NCBI RefSeq assembly: GCF_037976325.1
Contig: NZ_CP150265.1
Span: 6,737,001-6,801,000, forward strand
Source of the DNA: Paenibacillus sp. FSL K6-3182
GTDB lineage: Bacteria > Bacillota > Bacilli > Paenibacillales > Paenibacillaceae
DNA length: 64,000 nucleotides
Reading direction: 5' to 3'
Shown: positions 36,301-59,145 of the stretch, one piece after another
Position numbering within the stretch: position 1 is the stretch's first letter
Layout: each line of letters starts with the position of its first letter
Translations under genes and position numbers: made by a program
Notes under the pieces: model-generated
Told to the model about the DNA's origin: nothing
What the model saw: the letters and a program-made list of their open reading frames with translations, nothing else
Databases searched by the model: none

Positions 36301-36568
36301 ACTCGGCAACCTCCAGTCTGCCTTGCTTTGCAATTTCCGTGTCATTTACACTATTAACCACTATACGCCTCCTTTACCATTTGTTCAAAAACCACTATAA
36401 GGTGCAAAAACAAGAAAACCCGAGACAAACCACGTCAAATGATGGTTAACGAGGTTATTTGCGCTTAGAGGGGCAGTCTGGAAAATGGCATCTAAATACC
36501 TAGAGGGCAGCCTCTCTATAATCAGCTGCCGCCATTTTATCCCCAAATAACAGAAGGGGCTGTCCCAA

Positions 36569-37852
36569 AAGTTAGAATCTATGTGTGCTTACTGCTCCAT
36601 TTCCACCTCGAACAAACGCTGCCGTAACTCTGTAAGCGCATATTTGTTCTTACAGACAACAAACCTAGCCTTTTCTCTCGCTGTAAGAACCTATGCGTGC
36701 TTACAGCTCCGTTTCCACCTCGAACAAACACTGCCGCAACTCTGTAAGCACATATTTGTTCTTACAGACAACAAACCTAGTCTTTTCTATCGCTGTAAGA
36801 ACCTATGCGTGCTTACTGCTCCATTTCCACCTCGAACAAACGCTGCCGTAACTCTGTAAGCGCATATTTGTTCTTACAGACAACAAACCTAACCTTTTCT
36901 TCAGCTTTAAGAACCTATGTGTGCTTACAGCTCCATTTCCACCTCGAACAAACGCTGCCGCAACTCTGTAAGCGCATATTTGTTCTTACAGACAACAAAC
37001 CTAGCCTTTTCTCTCGCTTTAAGAACCTATGCATGCTTACAGAGAGATTTCCACCTCGAACAAACGCTGCCGTAACTCTGTAAGCGCATATTTGTTCTTA
37101 CAGACAACAAACCTAACCTTTTCTCTCGCTGTAAGAACCTATGTGTGCTTACAGCGAGAGTTCCTACCTCGAACAAACGCTGCCGTAACTCTGTAAGCAC
37201 ATATTTGTTCTTACAGACAACAAACCTAGCCTTTTCTCTCGCTGTAAGAACCTATACGTGCTTACTGCTCCATTCCCACCTCGAACAAACGCTGCCGTAA
37301 CTCTGTAAGCGCATATTTGTTCTTACAGACAACAAACCTAACCTTTTCTCTCGCTGTAAGAACCTATGTGTGCTTACAGCGAGAGTTCCTACCTCGAACA
37401 AACGCTGCCGTAACTCTGTAAGCGCATATTTGTTCTTACAGACAACAAACCTAGCCTTTTCTCTCGCTGTAAGAACCTATGTGTGCTTACTGCTCCATTC
37501 CTACCTCGAACAAACGCTGCCGTAACTCTGTAAGCACATATTTGTTCTTACAGACAACAAACCTAGCCTTTTCTCTCGCTGTAAGAACCTATACGTGCTT
37601 ACAGCGAGATTTCCACCTCGAACAAACGCTGCCGTAACTCTGTAAGCGCATATTTGTTCTTACAGATAACAAACCTATCGTTTTCTCTCGCTGTAAGAAC
37701 CTATGCGTGCTTACTGCTCCATTTCCACCTCGAACAAACGCTGCCGCAAGTCTGTAAGCGCATATTTGTTCTTAAAGACAACAAACCTAACCTTTTCTCT
37801 CGCTGTAAGAACCTATGCGTGCTTACAGCACCATTTCCCACCTCAAGCAGAC
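36569..37852 (+). repeat. Tandem array of 112-113 bp repeats (11 full units plus a partial one)
   Basis: The phrase around ATGYGTGCTTAC recurs at 36581, 36693, 36805, 36917, 37029, 37141, 37254, 37366, 37479, 37591, 37703 and 37815, a period of 112 (three units... two of them 113) bp. Each unit has two 26-bp palindromes of the type CTGTAAG-N12-CTTACAG, for example at 36630-36655 and 36681-36706, 51 bp apart, then 61 bp to the next. TTCTTACAG and CTGTAAGAA also pair between the two. Some units extend the second palindrome to TCTCGCTGTAAG/CTTACAGCGAGA. There are no unique spacers and no recognisable protein. The 36301-36568 stretch before it holds only short inverted repeats. Confidence 0.95.
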
Positions 37853-37908
37853 GCAGAAATTCGCTCGCCTACCATTTATTTAAACAAACATACATAGACC
37901 AAAAAAGA

Positions 37909-37951
37909 AAAATGGCGGCACTGGAATAAGTTCCTGTGACGCCATTTTTTC
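37909..37951 (-). terminator. Terminator of the GH27/SLH gene
   Basis: On the minus strand AAAATGGCGTCACAGGAA pairs with TTCCAGTGCCGCCATTTT (few mismatches), flanked by A and T runs. Confidence 0.8.
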
Positions 37952-38026
37952 AATATTTTTATGGTTTTTAATTAAATCGAAATATCTCTTCAGCGAGTTT
38001 AACTCTTTTTGGACACCCTCTCTCTG

Positions 38027-41000
38027 CTACTTAACCGACGCCGCTAAAATATCGCCATAAGCCCAATGATTGCTAGCAACATCCTTCCACGGGGATGAGG
38101 TTACGCCGACTAGATTGCCTCTGCCGAGTACTTTGTTGATCATGCTGACTGCTTCTGCACGCGTCAGCGCGTTATTTGGCTTAAAGCTTCCATCCGCATA
38201 ACCATTAGTGATTCCAGCGGCTTGCACATTTAGAATAGCTGCCTTCGCCCAATGAGTCGAAATATCGGTAAAACCTGCTCCAGCCTTTGGTGCAACACCG
38301 ATAAGCGTGGATATAAGCTTCGCCATTTCAGCGCGTGTCATTGCTTTTTCAGCACCAAACGTTCCATCTTCATACCCTTGCATTAAGCCCATTTTTGTTA
38401 CTTTCGAAATCGCATCCTTCGCCCAATTGCCTGCGAGAACATCATTATAAGGAATGTCCGCCTCAGTTGCTACCTGCTTAACGATTCTTGACAGAATAAC
38501 CGCCATCTCAGCACGGGTAATCTTGTTTTCCGGCCTAAATGTACCATCCTTATAACCATTCATATAAGCGGTACCCAAGCTAGAATCGGCTAAGCCCTCC
38601 ACATGGACGAGTGAAAAAAGACTGAATTTGTCGACTGTGAATTGAAGGCCCATCTCGCCCTTGTCGTTAAACGGTACGATAATGCCCTTCAGCAGCTGCT
38701 TCGTTCCGTCGCTGTGCTCGATATATACAGCCAGGTCCTTCCGGTCTGCTTCGCTCAGCTTCACATCCTTCAAAGGCAAAATGAGGGTTACATTGCCTTT
38801 TGGCAAATTCGTTTCAATGTTCATCGGACGGCCTATTATAGATGCCTCTTTATTTCCTGCAACGATCCTTAACATCGCTTCTTTATTCGCTCGACCCGCA
38901 ATTTCCTGCTTCTTCGCTTCCTCCTTAACCGGTGTAAAACGAATGAACAGATCCTCCAGTGATGACTGAAGCAAACCGCTAGCCACCATTATCTTAACGT
39001 TTTCTGTCGATATGCCTAAATCAATTTTTGCATCTGCGAACACTTTTTTTGCTTCCTTCGGCAGAGTGACAGAAGTTAGCGTTACTTCATCCTTCGTATC
39101 AGGAATCGTGATCGTAACCAATTTGTGTCCCGCTGCTGTGACGCTGTTTACAGCTTTTTGCGCTTGATCAACTGTAATAGGTACATCATCCGTTTTCTTG
39201 CCATCCGCTTGTGTCGTACGCGTGATTACAACCCTAGCAGCATTTTCAACATCAATCGTGATGAGCTCCTTAGCTGGAGCATTCGTGGTTACGGGTGCCG
39301 ATGTTGGTGTTATCGTTGGTGTTGCCGACGGCGTCGGCGCTATTGTTTCTTCCGGCGTTGCCGTTGGTGTTGCTGACGGTGATGCTGTTGACGTTGGCGT
39401 TGCTGACGGTGTTGCCGATGGCACTGTCGCCGCATTCACCTCAAACTTCACACCATCCACCAACATATACTCGCCGGATTTTTTAACCGCCTTAATCGTA
39501 TGAGCGCCATTTGCTAACCCAGATATGCTGTATACCGCTTGCTGGGTCAGTCTGCTCGCATGATGCGCGCTTACCGTTTCTTTAAATACATCGTCAACAT
39601 AGATGTCTATGTCACCTTGAGAAGCTGACATCGGCGCAATTAATGTTATGCCGGTTCCAGTAAACGAATATTCAACATAGTCGCCATCCGTCTCCGTAGC
39701 GTGCAGGTCATTTTGATAATCGCCTTTATAGGAAATGGCTAAGCTCAACGCTCCATCCGGCTGTGCGGCAAGATATTCTTTTTTAACTGTAATCACACTA
39801 CCGGATATTGTGTAATCACTGCCCGCTGCAAGCGTTGCAGCACCATTCGCAATACCAAGCAGATTGCTACCATCAATACTAAGCGTTGTCGTTACATCGA
39901 CTTGTACCGTCTTGTCAAAGCTTGCAGCATCCGGACTAATCATATCTGCAATTCTAAACTGTAATTGGTCTAACAGCATATAATACCCGGATTTCTTAAC
40001 GACCTTAATCTTATGTGTTCCTTCAGACAATCCCTCAATACTATAAACCGTCTGCCTAATTTGCCGGCTAGTATTGTACGTGCTGATCGTTTGCTTAAAC
40101 ACGTCATCCACATAAACATCGATATCCCCTTGCGAGGAATCCTTCTCCGTTACGATCTCAATGCCTGTTCCCTCAAACCGATATTCAAAATAATCGTTGT
40201 TCGCCTCCGTGTAATGGACATCATCCTTGTAATCGCCTAATCCACGGTTTCTGCCATGCTGCCATGCACCCTTATAAGAGATTCCGCTATCATCATTATT
40301 AATAGATACATAGCGGCCTCTAGACGTATCGCTTACTGCGATAGCCAGTATTTGCGCGGCTCCACCGCTAAAAGACAACGTCAGATTGGTCATTCCATTT
40401 GGCTTGGCCGCAAGGAATTCCTTCTTAATCGTAAGCTGGTCGCCCGACAACTGAAAATCGACGCCTGCCTGCAAAGCCGCCGCACCATCAGCAATACCGC
40501 TCAAGCTGTTTCCGTTAAAGGTGAGCTTCGTCCAAATATCTGCTTGTGCATTCGCTCTTTTGTCGAAGCTTAATGCGCTTGGGACCATTGTGCTGTTCTG
40601 ACCTGTCGTATCACTTACGACAATCGATAGGTTCTGTGCCATTCCGTGATCAAAGCTAAAGCTTAGATTCACCATGCCGAGCGGCAATGATGCCAGATAC
40701 GCTTTATTAATCGTGACTGTATCGTCCAAAACGATATAATCGCTGCCTGCCGCCAACGTCGTTGTGCCATTCGAAATACCGGCAAGCGTATTTCCATTCA
40801 GCGTTAACGTTGTTGCGATATCTGCTTGCATATCTGCCTTCTTATTAAAGCTGGCTGTGACTGGGTTAATTGTGCTGTTAGCAGCAGATGAATCACTTAC
40901 AGCAATCGCCAGCGTCTGTGTCGCTCCGCCATCAAAGGTAAAGATCAAGCTCGCAGTCCCAAGAGGCTGTGCCGCCAAATATTCCTTTTTAAACGTCACC

Positions 41001-43570
41001 ACATTGCCAACAACCGTATAATCCGTGCCCGCTATCAAGGCTCCTGAACCGCCTGCAATACTGCTTAGGCTGCTTCCATCGACTGTTGTCGAAAGAGTAA
41101 AATCAGCCTGCTGCCCATCAGCCTTATCAAACATTCCACTGCTCGCGCTAATTAAATCCGGCACACTAATTCTCAGCTTATCAAGCAGCAGGAAGTAACC
41201 GGACTTCTTCACCGCTTTAAGCGTGTGGGTTCCGTTAGTGAATCCTGTTATGTTGAATACTGGCTGCTGTGCCAGCCTTCCGATGTTGTAGGTACTGATC
41301 GTTCGCTGGAATACGTTGTCCATATAGATGTCTATTTCGCCTTGTGAAGGATCCAGCTCGGTAATGAATTCAATGCCCGTTCCCGTAAACGTATACTCAA
41401 AATAATCGTTGTTGTTCGCCTCCGCATAATGCACATCATCCATATAATCGCCAAGTCCGCGGTTATAGCTGCGGTTCCAGCCGCCTGTATAGACAATAGA
41501 CGGATGGTCATCATTGATGGAAATCGACCCGCCTTCAGATGTATCCCTTACGACTAAGGAAACATGCTGCTCCGCTCCTGCACTGAATGAGAAGGTTAAA
41601 GCCGTCGTTCCCATAGGAAGCCCCGCTAGATACTCCTTCTTAATCGTCAGCTGGCTTCCCGAAACAGTATAGTCCGTGCCGATTGCCAAAGCGTTTCCTT
41701 CATGCGCAGCGCCCGTTAATTCATTGCCGTTTAACGAGGTCGTCAGCGTAATATCAGCTTGAGAGGACAGCTTCTTATCAAAACTCACTGTTGCAGGAGT
41801 AACCCTACTATCCCTTATTGTCGTGTCGGTTACGGTTATGGCAAAGGTCTGTGATGCCCCGCCGCTAAACGCAAACGTTAAATTCGTAATGCCTGCCTGT
41901 CTTGCTGCTAGATACTCTTTTTTAATCGTAACGGTATCACCTGATACGGTGTAATCCGTACCAGACACCAGTACCGTTCCATTGTTAGTGATACTATTCA
42001 GTGTATTTCCGTTCAGCGTCATCACCGTCGCAGCATCAGACTGCTCCGAAGCCTTCTTATTGAAGCTTGCCGCAGATGGGCTAATACTGCTGTTTAGCGC
42101 TGTGTTATCCCTTACATCAATAATGAGATTTTGCTTGTCTCCGACTAGCTCCTGCCCGCCGTTGCGAACCCAATGGCCCGAATATTTCATTCCGGTATCG
42201 TCGTCATTAGCAGCTGCTGTTCCATCCTGTGCCACTACCTTGAACAACCTCGAAGCATGCGAAGCCAAATTTTCATCACTGTATCCAGTCGCAAATGAGC
42301 CCAAATCCTCATGGCTCCACAGATCACGGACAGTGGCTGGACCGGTGATGCCAATATCACTCCAATTCACGTTAACCGTCGCAGCAGAGCTTCCGAGATT
42401 AAAGAATCCCACCGTATAGCTTCCGTCACCATTATTCGCATACCACACCTGCTGCTCCGTCGCTGTCGATACAGGATGCCCCGGCCTGCCAGCCTGATTG
42501 ACCGCGATTACTTCTTCATTCGTCAACAGCTCGATGCCGTAATCGTCCAACTTTGTCATGTCATTGCCGATGTATAATTGCGCCGATGAAATCGCCCAGA
42601 ACGACATCGCCGACATCCGCTCGTCCTTCGTGATGCCATCCATTGTTCCATTTCCGATATTCAATGAATCAAAATCATTCCAGCCGCCTGGACCTGCATG
42701 ACGCCAGAACTGCTCTGCTTTCGGGAATAATCTAGCGATATTAGGCCAAGCCGTTAAACCCCCGTTGCTGCAGTAGCATTCGATGTCCCAGTCCACACGC
42801 CATCCGTTTGCATACTGCTTCCAGTAATCGATGTATTTGATATCAAGCGCCCAGGAAAGCTCCAGCCAAATTTGGTGGGGAGCCAGCGCCTGCGACCAAG
42901 CCTTTACATCGTCACGCGCATCCAGCGAAAGGTCAGAAATACCTGAGCCTGGCGTCACGCTGTCAAATTTCAAAAAGTCGATTCCCCATTCTCCATAAAG
43001 GTCGGCAATTGAATTTATGTAGCTCTGCGCGCATGGCTGGCTGAAATCTATTTTGTAGCCAAGCCCCCAATAATCCGACTCCTGAATCGGCTGAGCCGCG
43101 ATGTCCTTCATCGAGCAGCCCGGAGCGCCATAGATCGGCAGATCCTGATCATACGCTTGCGGCGATAAACCTGGAATGCCATACAAGCCGATCTTTTGCC
43201 CATTCGCATGGACGTAATCAATCACCTCTTGAAAGCCATTTGGATATAAAGTTGTACTCGGAATTGGCCGCCCATACTCGTCCATTCCGCCATTCCATGC
43301 CGCATCGATATTAATATACTCGTAGCCATAAGGCTGAAGTTTCTCATGCATTGCATCCGATTGTGCCTTAATATTGTCTGCGTTAATCCACTGCCCATTG
43401 CCCGTATAAACCTGCAAGCTGTAGCTGCTCCAGCCCATATATGGCTTCGCAGCTAATCCATTATTCGCCGCCTCCGCAACATCTGTTTTTGGTATCACGA
43501 TTCCCAGCTGCGCTGTAATCATCACAACGATTAGCAGCCACAAACGTGATTTCTTCATTATTTGCGTCAT
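38027..43570 (-). CDS. Giant surface GH27 alpha-galactosidase-like enzyme with X2, carbohydrate-binding-like and SLH modules
   Basis: 1847 residues. A signal peptide of about 35 residues is followed by a GH27 barrel (about 36-360: PYMGWSSYSLQ, YINIDAAWNGG, nucleophile Asp in FLKFDSV, acid/base region RVDWDIEC) and a beta domain to about 450. Then come X2-like Ig modules at about 492-583, 585-678, 805-895, 897-989, 990-1083 and a short sixth at 1207-1280. They alternate with three copies of a beta-sandwich module (about 683-802, 1088-1206 and a shortened one to 1378; DYFEYTFTGTGIE, SQGDIDVYVDDVF, KKSGYYMLLD). A Thr/Pro linker, a ~220-residue domain and three SLH repeats follow. It should hydrolyse alpha-galactose or beta-L-arabinopyranose side chains at the cell surface. 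GGAG lies 7 bases before the ATG. Confidence 0.93.
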   Translation of the reverse strand: MTQIMKKSRLWLLIVVMITAQLGIVIPKTDVAEAANNGLAAKPYMGWSSYSLQVYTGNGQWINADNIKAQSDAMHEKLQPYGYEYINIDAAWNGGMDEYGRPIPSTTLYPNGFQEVIDYVHANGQKIGLYGIPGLSPQAYDQDLPIYGAPGCSMKDIAAQPIQESDYWGLGYKIDFSQPCAQSYINSIADLYGEWGIDFLKFDSVTPGSGISDLSLDARDDVKAWSQALAPHQIWLELSWALDIKYIDYWKQYANGWRVDWDIECYCSNGGLTAWPNIARLFPKAEQFWRHAGPGGWNDFDSLNIGNGTMDGITKDERMSAMSFWAISSAQLYIGNDMTKLDDYGIELLTNEEVIAVNQAGRPGHPVSTATEQQVWYANNGDGSYTVGFFNLGSSAATVNVNWSDIGITGPATVRDLWSHEDLGSFATGYSDENLASHASRLFKVVAQDGTAAANDDDTGMKYSGHWVRNGGQELVGDKQNLIIDVRDNTALNSSISPSAASFNKKASEQSDAATVMTLNGNTLNSITNNGTVLVSGTDYTVSGDTVTIKKEYLAARQAGITNLTFAFSGGASQTFAITVTDTTIRDSRVTPATVSFDKKLSSQADITLTTSLNGNELTGAAHEGNALAIGTDYTVSGSQLTIKKEYLAGLPMGTTALTFSFSAGAEQHVSLVVRDTSEGGSISINDDHPSIVYTGGWNRSYNRGLGDYMDDVHYAEANNNDYFEYTFTGTGIEFITELDPSQGEIDIYMDNVFQRTISTYNIGRLAQQPVFNITGFTNGTHTLKAVKKSGYFLLLDKLRISVPDLISASSGMFDKADGQQADFTLSTTVDGSSLSSIAGGSGALIAGTDYTVVGNVVTFKKEYLAAQPLGTASLIFTFDGGATQTLAIAVSDSSAANSTINPVTASFNKKADMQADIATTLTLNGNTLAGISNGTTTLAAGSDYIVLDDTVTINKAYLASLPLGMVNLSFSFDHGMAQNLSIVVSDTTGQNSTMVPSALSFDKRANAQADIWTKLTFNGNSLSGIADGAAALQAGVDFQLSGDQLTIKKEFLAAKPNGMTNLTLSFSGGAAQILAIAVSDTSRGRYVSINNDDSGISYKGAWQHGRNRGLGDYKDDVHYTEANNDYFEYRFEGTGIEIVTEKDSSQGDIDVYVDDVFKQTISTYNTSRQIRQTVYSIEGLSEGTHKIKVVKKSGYYMLLDQLQFRIADMISPDAASFDKTVQVDVTTTLSIDGSNLLGIANGAATLAAGSDYTISGSVITVKKEYLAAQPDGALSLAISYKGDYQNDLHATETDGDYVEYSFTGTGITLIAPMSASQGDIDIYVDDVFKETVSAHHASRLTQQAVYSISGLANGAHTIKAVKKSGEYMLVDGVKFEVNAATVPSATPSATPTSTASPSATPTATPEETIAPTPSATPTITPTSAPVTTNAPAKELITIDVENAARVVITRTTQADGKKTDDVPITVDQAQKAVNSVTAAGHKLVTITIPDTKDEVTLTSVTLPKEAKKVFADAKIDLGISTENVKIMVASGLLQSSLEDLFIRFTPVKEEAKKQEIAGRANKEAMLRIVAGNKEASIIGRPMNIETNLPKGNVTLILPLKDVKLSEADRKDLAVYIEHSDGTKQLLKGIIVPFNDKGEMGLQFTVDKFSLFSLVHVEGLADSSLGTAYMNGYKDGTFRPENKITRAEMAVILSRIVKQVATEADIPYNDVLAGNWAKDAISKVTKMGLMQGYEDGTFGAEKAMTRAEMAKLISTLIGVAPKAGAGFTDISTHWAKAAILNVQAAGITNGYADGSFKPNNALTRAEAVSMINKVLGRGNLVGVTSSPWKDVASNHWAYGDILAASVK

Positions 43571-57088: not shown

Positions 57089-57552
57089 CTGGAAGCACAC
57101 ATATGTGCTTCCAGCCACAAAACAGTATATGTTGATCGTCCTTGAGCACACATTTGCGCTTACAGCCTCAATATAGCCTAGGTAGCTCGTCCGTAAGCAC
57201 ACATATGTGCTTATTACGCCAATTCGAAGTGTGCGCAACAATGAAAAATGGCTGTAAGCACACATTTGCGCTTACAGCCTCAATATAGCCTATATAGCTC
57301 GTCCGTAAGCACATATACGTGCTTATTACGCCAATTCGACGTGTGCGCAACAATGAAAAATGGCTGTAAGCACACATTTGCGCTTACAGCCTCAATATAG
57401 CCTAGGTAGCTCGTCCGTAAGCACACATACGTGCTTATTACGCCAATTCGACGTGTGCGCAACAACGAAAAATGGCTGTAAGCACACATTTGCGCTTACA
57501 GCCTCAAAATAGCCTATGTGGCTCGTCCGTAAGCACACATATGTGCTTATTA
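57089..57552 (-). repeat. Second tandem array of the 112-bp palindrome repeat (about four units)
   Basis: 26-bp palindromes start at 57089, 57140, 57191, 57252, 57303, 57364, 57415, 57476 and 57527, so spacings are 51 and then alternately 61 and 51. The strong ones read CTGTAAGC...GCTTACAG; alternate ones are weaker (CCGTAAGCACA...TGTGCTTATTA). Period 112 bp, equal to the array at 36.6-37.9 kb, and the sequence aligns best to that array when reversed. The first element is CTGGAAG/CTTCCAG, a change that keeps pairing. The last one overlaps the stop codon of the next gene. Frames read through it are not genes. Confidence 0.93.
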
Positions 57553-59145
57553 CGCCAATTCGACGTGCGAGGAACATTGAAAAAGGCTGCTCCTCCTATT
57601 GATGGCAGTCAACAACGACTTTGCTTCCTCATGTTCTGGCTCCATCGCCAAAACTTGATGCGCATATTGCAATGCTTCTGGCTCTTCGCCCTCTTCATAG
57701 CAGCAAATCGCCAGCTTGTAGAGTGCATCCGCATTAGTCTTGCCAGCCTCCATCGAACGCTCCAAATATAGCCTCGCATCCGCATACAACTCCAGCTCAT
57801 AAAGCAGACTTCCGCATGCCAAAGCCAAATGGTGCTGTTCATTCATCGGATAATAGCTCGCCCACATCATTTGCATGCCCCGCCGAAGATCATCGGCTTC
57901 TTCGTCGCTGCTATCTGGCAGCAGCGACTGTATGCGCTCAGCGCTTTGAATGAACAATTGCGCATCGTAGCGGCTGAGTCGCCAGAAAGGTAAAATAGAA
58001 TAAAGCTCTAGCGACTCCAAATGCTCATCAAACCATAACTTCAAGCTAAAGAAATCATCCGGTCCAAAACGTTCAACAAAACGACGATAAGCTAAGCGTG
58101 TGTTCGCATAGGTCGCTGGCTTCTCCAGCATGATGATGCAGCCGACATTCAAATTTTTATAATGATGGTTAGTAAAATAGGACAATGCGCCTTTTTGTTC
58201 AAAAACATGCTGTATAGCATGATAATTGGCCGTGAGCGAAAAGCTGCCGTGATGAATCAGCTCGGGCGGCTCAGCAAATGCCCAGTTCTCCATTCGGTGA
58301 TCGCCTTTATCGGCTGTAAGCAGCACAAATCCCGCTTGTGATAACCGTCCAAGCCGTTCAAGACAATCCATCCCAATCTCCGGGAAGAGGATATGCGAAT
58401 CCTCAAGCTGCTGCTTATACAGCTCAATCACATTCCGATAAGGATACGATTGCTCTTCATACTCGGCTGCTCTTCGGTAATGATACTCGGGTTCTATGCT
58501 CACCAGCATGTCCGATACATCTCTGCCATCCTCCTCAGCAGCAGGTACCGCGAAGGACACTTTACATTCAAAAGTATGACCTTCATCCACATAAATGAGC
58601 TCCTGCGGAATGCTGTCAAAAAAATAATTGGCAACAAGCAGCAGCGGCTCCTTCAGGTCTGCCTGCTTTATCGTGACGCTCGATTCCGTCAATCGAAGCT
58701 CTGTATCACGTACCGCGTCAAACTTAGCGAAATCGAGTATTCCTTGCTGGACAAATGGCTGTAAGCGTTCATGCTGCTGCCAATAGGCAATATTTTTGAC
58801 TGGCAAATCACTCATGATGTAACGAAACGGCGGAAGCTCCATACCTGCAAAATCTATCAACTCACATAATGCCGTCAACACTTGAAAGGCTAGTCTACCC
58901 GAGCCTGCTCCAAGCTCAAGGATCGTAATCGGTTCCTCCGATATGCCGCCTAACCTTGCTCTATCCTGTAAAAACCCAAATATGATCTCCGCATAAGCAG
59001 ACGCGATCACAGGATTGTTCGTAATGTACTGCGGCACTTCATCATTTTGCCACGCCTCGATGCCCTGCTCTTCAAAATAAGCGCGCTGCAGCTCCCAAAT
59101 CGGCGCTTCGCTAAATCGGTAAATCGGCTGATCGCTATTATTCAT
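57550..59145 (-). CDS. MidA-like SAM-dependent methyltransferase with C-terminal TPR region
   Basis: 531 residues. The methyltransferase fold is seen in AYAEIIFGFLQ and motif I ITILELGAGSGRLAFQVL, then YIMSDLPVKN, LLLVANYFFDSIPQEL and VLLTADKGDHRME. This resembles the MidA/NDUFAF7 (COG1565) group. From about 440 the sequence forms TPR-like helical pairs (LALACGSLLYELELYADARLYLERSME, DALYKLAICCYEEGEEPEALQYAHQVLA). The last ~10 residues (CSSHVELA) and the TAA stop are encoded by the edge of the palindrome array, so the original C-terminus may have been different. Target unknown. Confidence 0.85.
   Translation of the reverse strand: MNNSDQPIYRFSEAPIWELQRAYFEEQGIEAWQNDEVPQYITNNPVIASAYAEIIFGFLQDRARLGGISEEPITILELGAGSGRLAFQVLTALCELIDFAGMELPPFRYIMSDLPVKNIAYWQQHERLQPFVQQGILDFAKFDAVRDTELRLTESSVTIKQADLKEPLLLVANYFFDSIPQELIYVDEGHTFECKVSFAVPAAEEDGRDVSDMLVSIEPEYHYRRAAEYEEQSYPYRNVIELYKQQLEDSHILFPEIGMDCLERLGRLSQAGFVLLTADKGDHRMENWAFAEPPELIHHGSFSLTANYHAIQHVFEQKGALSYFTNHHYKNLNVGCIIMLEKPATYANTRLAYRRFVERFGPDDFFSLKLWFDEHLESLELYSILPFWRLSRYDAQLFIQSAERIQSLLPDSSDEEADDLRRGMQMMWASYYPMNEQHHLALACGSLLYELELYADARLYLERSMEAGKTNADALYKLAICCYEEGEEPEALQYAHQVLAMEPEHEEAKSLLTAINRRSSLFQCSSHVELA

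Follow-up and report, generated by a model that had tools for sequence, protein, structure and literature searches.

Palindrome arrays and a MITE-like element in the window

The DNA analysed here, referred to as the window, is a stretch of 64,000 bp from the 7.56 Mb genome of Paenibacillus sp. FSL K6-3182. It contains two tandem arrays of palindromes, neither of which was assigned a strand. Array 1 (36569–37852) comprises 23 palindromes, each 26 bp long, separated by alternating linkers of 25 bp and 35/36 bp, with a period of 112 bp. TRF reported this repeat at 36574–37844 (period 112, 11.3 copies, 91% matches, score 2121), and the distances between neighbouring palindromes alternated between 51 and 61 bp, with 62 bp occurring twice. 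The palindrome arms were exact in 15 of 23 cases and had one mismatch in seven; the truncated first palindrome had four. The layout described in an earlier sequence-only reading of this DNA, a tandem array of 112-bp units with 26-bp palindromes at 51/61 spacing, was thus confirmed. An example of palindrome type P1, CTGTAAGCGCATATTTGTTCTTACAG (36630–36655, no strand), is followed by a 25-bp linker (36656–36680), and an example of type P2, CTGTAAGAACCTATGCGTGCTTACAG (36681–36706, no strand), by a 35-bp linker (36707–36741). Each of these linkers, likewise without strand, belongs to a distantly conserved linker class.

Array 2 (57089–57590) lies between convergent genes and has nine palindromes in the same 51/61 layout with linker sequences of its own. 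Its neighbours are an AraC-type gene and, in convergent orientation, a methyltransferase/TPR gene. The sequence-only reading had recorded array 1 correctly but overlooked array 2 and 13 further arrays elsewhere in the genome. In a whole-genome pattern search, the exact site CTGTAAG-N12-CTTACAG occurred 78 times and a reversed control pattern not at all, so sites of this type are not due to chance. All but one of the exact sites (77/78) fell within 15 arrays, each with 5 to 29 palindromes, two of these arrays being in the window, and the remaining one was a lone site; the total of 15 may miss arrays without any exact site outside the stretches examined. A coding function was rejected: the 112-bp period is not divisible by 3, and the ORFs found within the arrays or overlapping them are limited to ~80 to 140 aa. 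Beside array 1, positions 38027–43570 encode a protein of 1847 aa in which an alpha-galactosidase stretch is combined with six CBM_X2 and three SLH stretches.

Array 1 is enclosed by a MITE-like element. The left terminal inverted repeat, GGGGCTGTCCCAAAAG (16 bp; 36556–36571, + strand), has a counterpart with three mismatches at 38005–38020 (− strand). Between the array and the right end lies a module (37853–38004, no strand) that recurs at two other arrays of this genome, L038 (79% identity over 126 bp) and L163 (76% over 124 bp); reading by eye, we noted a T-tailed hairpin within it at about 37908–37950. Inverted repeats of the type GGRGCTGTCCCAAAAG bound array 1 and L163 at both ends and, in the sequence searched, no other array of this genome. 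No target-site duplication was evident by eye at either locus. The non-coding element family with these ends comprises the window copy (36556–38020), L163:7105–7710, L261, L262, L264, L265 and L266, and two copies contain arrays.

One explanation is that a MITE with GGGGCTGTCCCAAAAG ends carries the array as cargo or as a subterminal repeat, for which array 1, L163 and the right module of L038 speak. Against it, neither an end pair nor the right module was found in the sequence searched around the other 12 arrays of the genome (L029 has one end nearby), and the 112-bp unit itself does not have such ends. Only 4 of 57 arrays had any MITE-like end within 700 bp. Conversely, of 11 near-matches to the end in the genome, two flank array 1 and L163, and the other nine had no palindrome within 1.5 kb when up to one arm mismatch was allowed. 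Five of these nine had a second inverted end 366–760 bp away, with no 120-aa ORF between the ends among the ORFs listed. Since 13 of 15 arrays lack the end pair and nine end loci lack an array, the 112-bp unit is not part of the MITE itself. Of the proposal that the unit might be a transposon or MITE fragment, what stood is that array 1 sits between MITE-like ends; as an account of the arrays in general, we consider MITE cargo very improbable. MITE carriage may nevertheless sometimes create new array positions, as at the array 1 locus.

Distribution, shared loci and gene context

The exact site was searched for in 394 genomes of the family (51 of the genus and 343 others). Within Paenibacillus, where the sequence-only reading had suggested such a search, it was present in 16 of 51 genomes with up to 102 copies and absent from 35, so the array type is not unique; copy numbers may be underestimated in draft genomes. 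Outside the genus, 8 of 343 genomes had one or two exact sites, compared with 7 of 343 for the control pattern. Among viral contigs, 19 matched a loose palindrome pattern and none of these had a neighbour at 51/61 bp, and the array sequence had no blastn match in plasmid and phage collections; an origin from phages or plasmids was rejected on these grounds. As judged by titles and the beginnings of abstracts, none of the open-licence papers listed in literature searches gave an account of these arrays, and the term ‘Paenibacillus’ was absent from PMC12306157 and PMC3733652.

The 76 arrays examined formed 46 locus groups, 14 of which included at least two genomes. Thirteen of the 15 arrays of the window’s genome had a counterpart elsewhere, 11 in a different species (G029) and two only in G033, which is of the same species; array 1 and L163 had none in this locus-group analysis. 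At the 11 loci common to two species, the arrays had 6 to 29 palindromes. The array between ftsZ and spoIIGA occurred in 10 genomes of the 76-array set, down to P. glycanilyticus (SpoIIGA identity 71%). Of 80 SpoIIGA loci examined, 14 passed a loose palindrome criterion, and many species therefore lack an array there. Because independently assembled species have arrays at the same loci, an assembly artefact, named by the sequence-only reading as a possible refutation, is unlikely.

Copy number differed widely at shared loci (27 vs 1, 29 vs 3 and 20 vs 2 palindromes), and in G032, G040 and G018 a single palindrome was left at some of them; some low counts come from drafts, but the count of one palindrome in G032 comes from a genome in a single contig. 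A full array is therefore not indispensable. At the window’s own locus, the draft genome G033 had two full palindromes and a truncated one, compared with 23, and the left element end was missing. In eight other species with the neighbouring gene, no array was found at this position. The array 1 locus thus looks young.

Such variation in copy number would suit a passive bacterial satellite, i.e. a hairpin-prone repeat that grows and shrinks by slippage or unequal exchange and is kept by descent and homogenisation without any function. The distinct linker consensus of each array, a sign of concerted evolution, points in the same direction. The persistence of arrays of 6 to 29 palindromes at 11 loci common to two species is harder to reconcile with this explanation, as are the spacing and half-site data presented below. 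We consider a passive satellite possible but rather unlikely.

The arrays are intergenic except that, in 10 of 57 cases, 2 to 89 bp overlapped a script-called ORF at its edge. Their gene context was convergent in 20 cases, co-directional in 34 and divergent in three, one of which (L191) is apparently an ORF-calling error. The corresponding baseline numbers were 23, 141 and 59 (223 gaps, from the window’s genome only, with orthologues kept and genes called by script). Of the 55 3'-facing gaps, 20 had a T-tailed terminator between gene end and array (0.4 expected from shuffles), as did 1 of the 31 5'-facing gaps; this count covered gaps of 25–450 bp, with L191 dropped and with shuffles rather than ordinary gene ends as the reference.

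Unit orientation agreed with the sign of the local GC skew in 53 of 76 arrays and, with one array per locus group, in 32 of 46 (binomial P=0.011). This agreement would suit a polar element linked to replication, e.g. a fork-pausing or strand-guide array with a role like that of Ter or KOPS, which are examples of such sites. The bias is modest, however (~70%), and may in part reflect gene strand. Moreover, the sites themselves are nearly symmetric, and the replication terminator protein family RTP (PF02334) reached the cut-off in 0 of 51 genus genomes, for which reason RTP was rejected as the array binder. On this evidence, a replication-linked element is improbable. Sub-threshold RTP matches occurred in 17 of 51 genomes (G000:C1:6105646–6105879 and 16 other genomes), in an open frame of about 200–260 aa; nine of these genomes are among the 16 that bear the palindrome and eight among the remaining 35 of the genus. 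This stretch may be only a PadR-type regulator.

Spacing, linkers and half-sites

Among neighbour distances of up to 80 bp at the sampled loci (about 17 genomes), 541 of 549 were 50–52 bp (281) or 60–62 bp (260) and eight had other values; palindromes were identified by their arms only (at most two mismatches) with no spacing filter, at loci that had been picked for carrying the site, one of which was counted twice. We compared linkers in 11 pairs of arrays at the same loci of the window’s genome and G029. None of the 22 linkers had changed in length, while their consensus sequences had drifted by 136 substitutions in 659 aligned bases; the alignments contained two gap events, which cancelled and left no net length change. 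The flanks of the same pairs had 75 indel events and 598 substitutions (0.125 per substitution), which predicts 17.1 linker indels. Units in this test were chosen by their spacing, which favours a zero-change result, but the count of 549 distances is free of such a choice. We conclude that array spacing is constrained while linker sequence drifts. Divergence of linkers at constant length, next to flanks that accumulate indels, argues against a passive satellite. Spacing anomalies of the types 51-51 and 61-61 also occur and resemble the loss of one segment between palindromes, which would be in line with passive turnover.

Rare odd spacings of 71 bp (L254:5007), 41 bp (L252:4983) and 68 bp (L247:5405) were observed, the first two differing by ten from 61 and 51 bp, about one helical turn. 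The proposal that all palindromes lie on one face of the DNA holds only approximately: with 10.5 bp per turn, 51 and 61 bp correspond to 4.86 and 5.81 turns, and they would equal 5 and 6 turns only at ~10.2 bp per turn.

The linkers are not entirely free of common sequence. GTAAC or GTTAC occurs at a fixed offset in the 25-bp linkers of many arrays, array 1 excepted, and exact GTAAC at offset 8 was present in 18 of 60 arrays (at most 2 in shuffles). Among the 41 arrays that have 35-bp linkers, about half carry TTCG or CGAA at a fixed offset in these linkers, and 19 have TTCG at offset 7 (at most 3 in shuffles).

In the window’s genome, the 26-bp site is composed of two facing copies of the half-site CTGTAAG-M-R-C-N-Y-A, in which CTGTAAG is followed by A or C, mostly A, C, any base, mostly T or C, and A. 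Half-site similarity was 0.634 for loci of the same genome; between genomes, it was 0.505 at different loci and 0.449 at the ftsZ locus, the last value being lowered because this set of 8 loci includes more distant genomes. For the 25-bp linker, the values were 0.494 within genomes, 0.450 between genomes at different loci and 0.528 at the ftsZ locus (shuffled: 0.362). Half-sites had a within-genome excess of 0.129, and the two linkers had excesses of 0.044 and 0.041; none of the three was reached in 1000 label shuffles. The small linker excess indicates that shared ancestry adds to the half-site signal. The half-site code therefore follows the genome, and the linkers partly follow the locus. 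A factor that is encoded by the genome and reads the palindromes would produce this pattern; a passive satellite gives no reason for half-sites to track the genome more than linkers do.

The sequence-only reading had offered a string of RNA hairpins as one of its two explanations. In transcripts, such a string might act in 3' end protection, in attenuation or as an sRNA, and the position of arrays near gene 3' ends would suit this. Single units can also fold, either into short hairpins or into one long hairpin spanning the 25-bp linker (z below −2.6 against shuffles in 8 of 10 single units). We examined whether the palindrome halves vary together. Among 123 distinct palindromes of the window’s genome, position 8 was complementary between halves at 0.37, compared with 0.50 if independent. 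At positions 9 to 13, pairing was at or below expectation, except for position 11 (0.44 vs 0.38). Short-hairpin pairing showed no overall excess in the window’s genome, G022 and G014, and G-T pairs were not commoner than A-C pairs in the window’s genome. For the long P1-P2 fold, pairing of the inner 12 bases of adjacent palindromes was 0.634 in the window’s genome, compared with 0.674 when partners were permuted between arrays, and it was also below the permuted value in G022, G029 and G014.

Exceptions of the kind that a hairpin would produce were seen in a few genomes, mostly with few palindromes. Pairing exceeded independence at position 11 in G029 (0.69 vs 0.40) and G032 (0.58 vs 0.38), at position 8 in G008 (0.89 vs 0.52; 9 palindromes), and at several positions in the P. 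lupini/G011 group, as in G011 at position 8 (1.00 vs 0.62; 8 palindromes) and G017 at position 11 (0.91 vs 0.63). Apart from G029, G032, G008 and G011/G017, compensatory stem changes gave no general signal for either hairpin in the window’s clade. At a locus shared within the P. lupini group (L188, L191 and L013), the palindromes have GC-rich inner arms of the GGCYG or GCNCC types around an A-rich centre, and these arms appear more paired than those of the window’s clade.

Rfam had no family at gathering score over the arrays, and with a relaxed threshold gave one chance-level match (mir-891, E 0.46); a known RNA family was rejected accordingly. With a terminator ahead of the array in 20 of 55 gaps, transcription of the arrays seems less likely. 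With these terminators and the low covariation in the window’s clade, the hairpin string is disfavoured, and we rate it as highly improbable. On balance, the mostly independent variation of the two halves is in keeping with a dimer that recognises double-stranded DNA.

Known systems and interpretation

Regularly spaced extragenic palindromes in tandem clusters are also known from the BIME-2 and REP clusters of enterobacteria and Xanthomonas, where BIME-2 is reported to bind DNA gyrase strongly and REP copies usually number more than 100 (PMC2817692). REP palindromes carry a GTAG or CGTC tag at one end, according to PMC3733652. Tandem clusters on the 3' sides of genes resemble BIMEs as described in PMC2817692, and the arrays could accordingly be mobile palindromes of the REP/BIME/REPIN type spread by a Y1 (RAYT) transposase. 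Y1_Tnp (PF01797) had no match, however, in eight array-rich genomes (G000, G014, G017, G022, G029, G032, G033 and G038), and a resident RAYT was rejected as the driver of the arrays. Across the genus, PF01797 matched in 8 of 51 genomes, and G015 was the only one of these among the 16 with the palindrome. No constant GTAG or CGTC was seen beside the arms in units inspected by eye. Unlike BIME-2/REP clusters, the arrays number 15 rather than more than 100 copies, and they keep the 51/61 spacing across species with diverged linkers, at many loci common to species rather than as scattered singletons.

REPINs consist of a pair of inverted palindromes able to form a single long hairpin. Neighbouring inverted palindromes of the arrays can do the same as those of Pseudomonas REPINs, but they lack P1-P2 covariation and a RAYT, and the exact palindromes lie in arrays (77 of 78). 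Mobility of the REP/BIME/REPIN type is extremely improbable. Because the defining transposase is absent and the REPIN-type pairing is without covariation, we did not file the arrays under REP/BIME; they are phased palindrome arrays that resemble a multi-site protein-binding array.

Arrays of parS or Ter sites and the CENP-B-box satellites of centromeres are clustered symmetric sites with a conserved core and diverging linkers. The Paenibacillus arrays share these three properties, although to our knowledge their site sequence and spacing match no parS-, Ter- or CENP-B-type site.

Of the explanations put forward in the sequence-only reading, a protein-binding array appears to fit best, given spacing that is kept independently of sequence, mostly independent half-sites and a code common to the loci of a genome. 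We regard it as a roughly even call that these are genus-specific tandem arrays of phased, two-fold symmetric double-stranded sites for a putative dimeric chromosomal protein. Such a protein would occupy the 26-bp sites, and neighbouring dimers would touch in a fixed geometry. The resulting nucleoprotein stretch in intergenic gaps could be a chromosome-organising or topological element with a BIME-like layout. Several observations weigh against this reading: most single units fold better than shuffles, inner positions pair in excess in some genomes, linkers too have a small within-genome excess, arrays have shrunk to one palindrome at some shared loci, and the exact site is absent from 35 of 51 genus genomes. 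No candidate for the binder emerged from the 13 lone palindromes inspected, which had no common neighbour gene. Several of them (L016, L204, L219 and L220) are what is left of arrays at shared loci, and the idea that lone palindromes are operators beside the binder gene was set aside.

More tentatively, and with less confidence than in a dimer-binding array as such, we suggest a lineage-specific chromosome-organising system in which the putative protein and the satellite-like arrays coevolve. The half-site code would then switch between species while the 51/61 spacing stays fixed, a possible bacterial parallel to CENP-B-box satellites.

Satellite-like DNA of kilobase length is unusual in bacteria. 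Here, arrays lie at the same positions in several species and keep base-pair-exact spacing despite drifting linkers. If a protein reads them, they would offer a handle on a new nucleoid or topology factor in Bacillota, together with a natural series of site/protein pairs of altered specificity. If no protein reads them, they would exemplify passive satellites that persist for long periods in bacteria.
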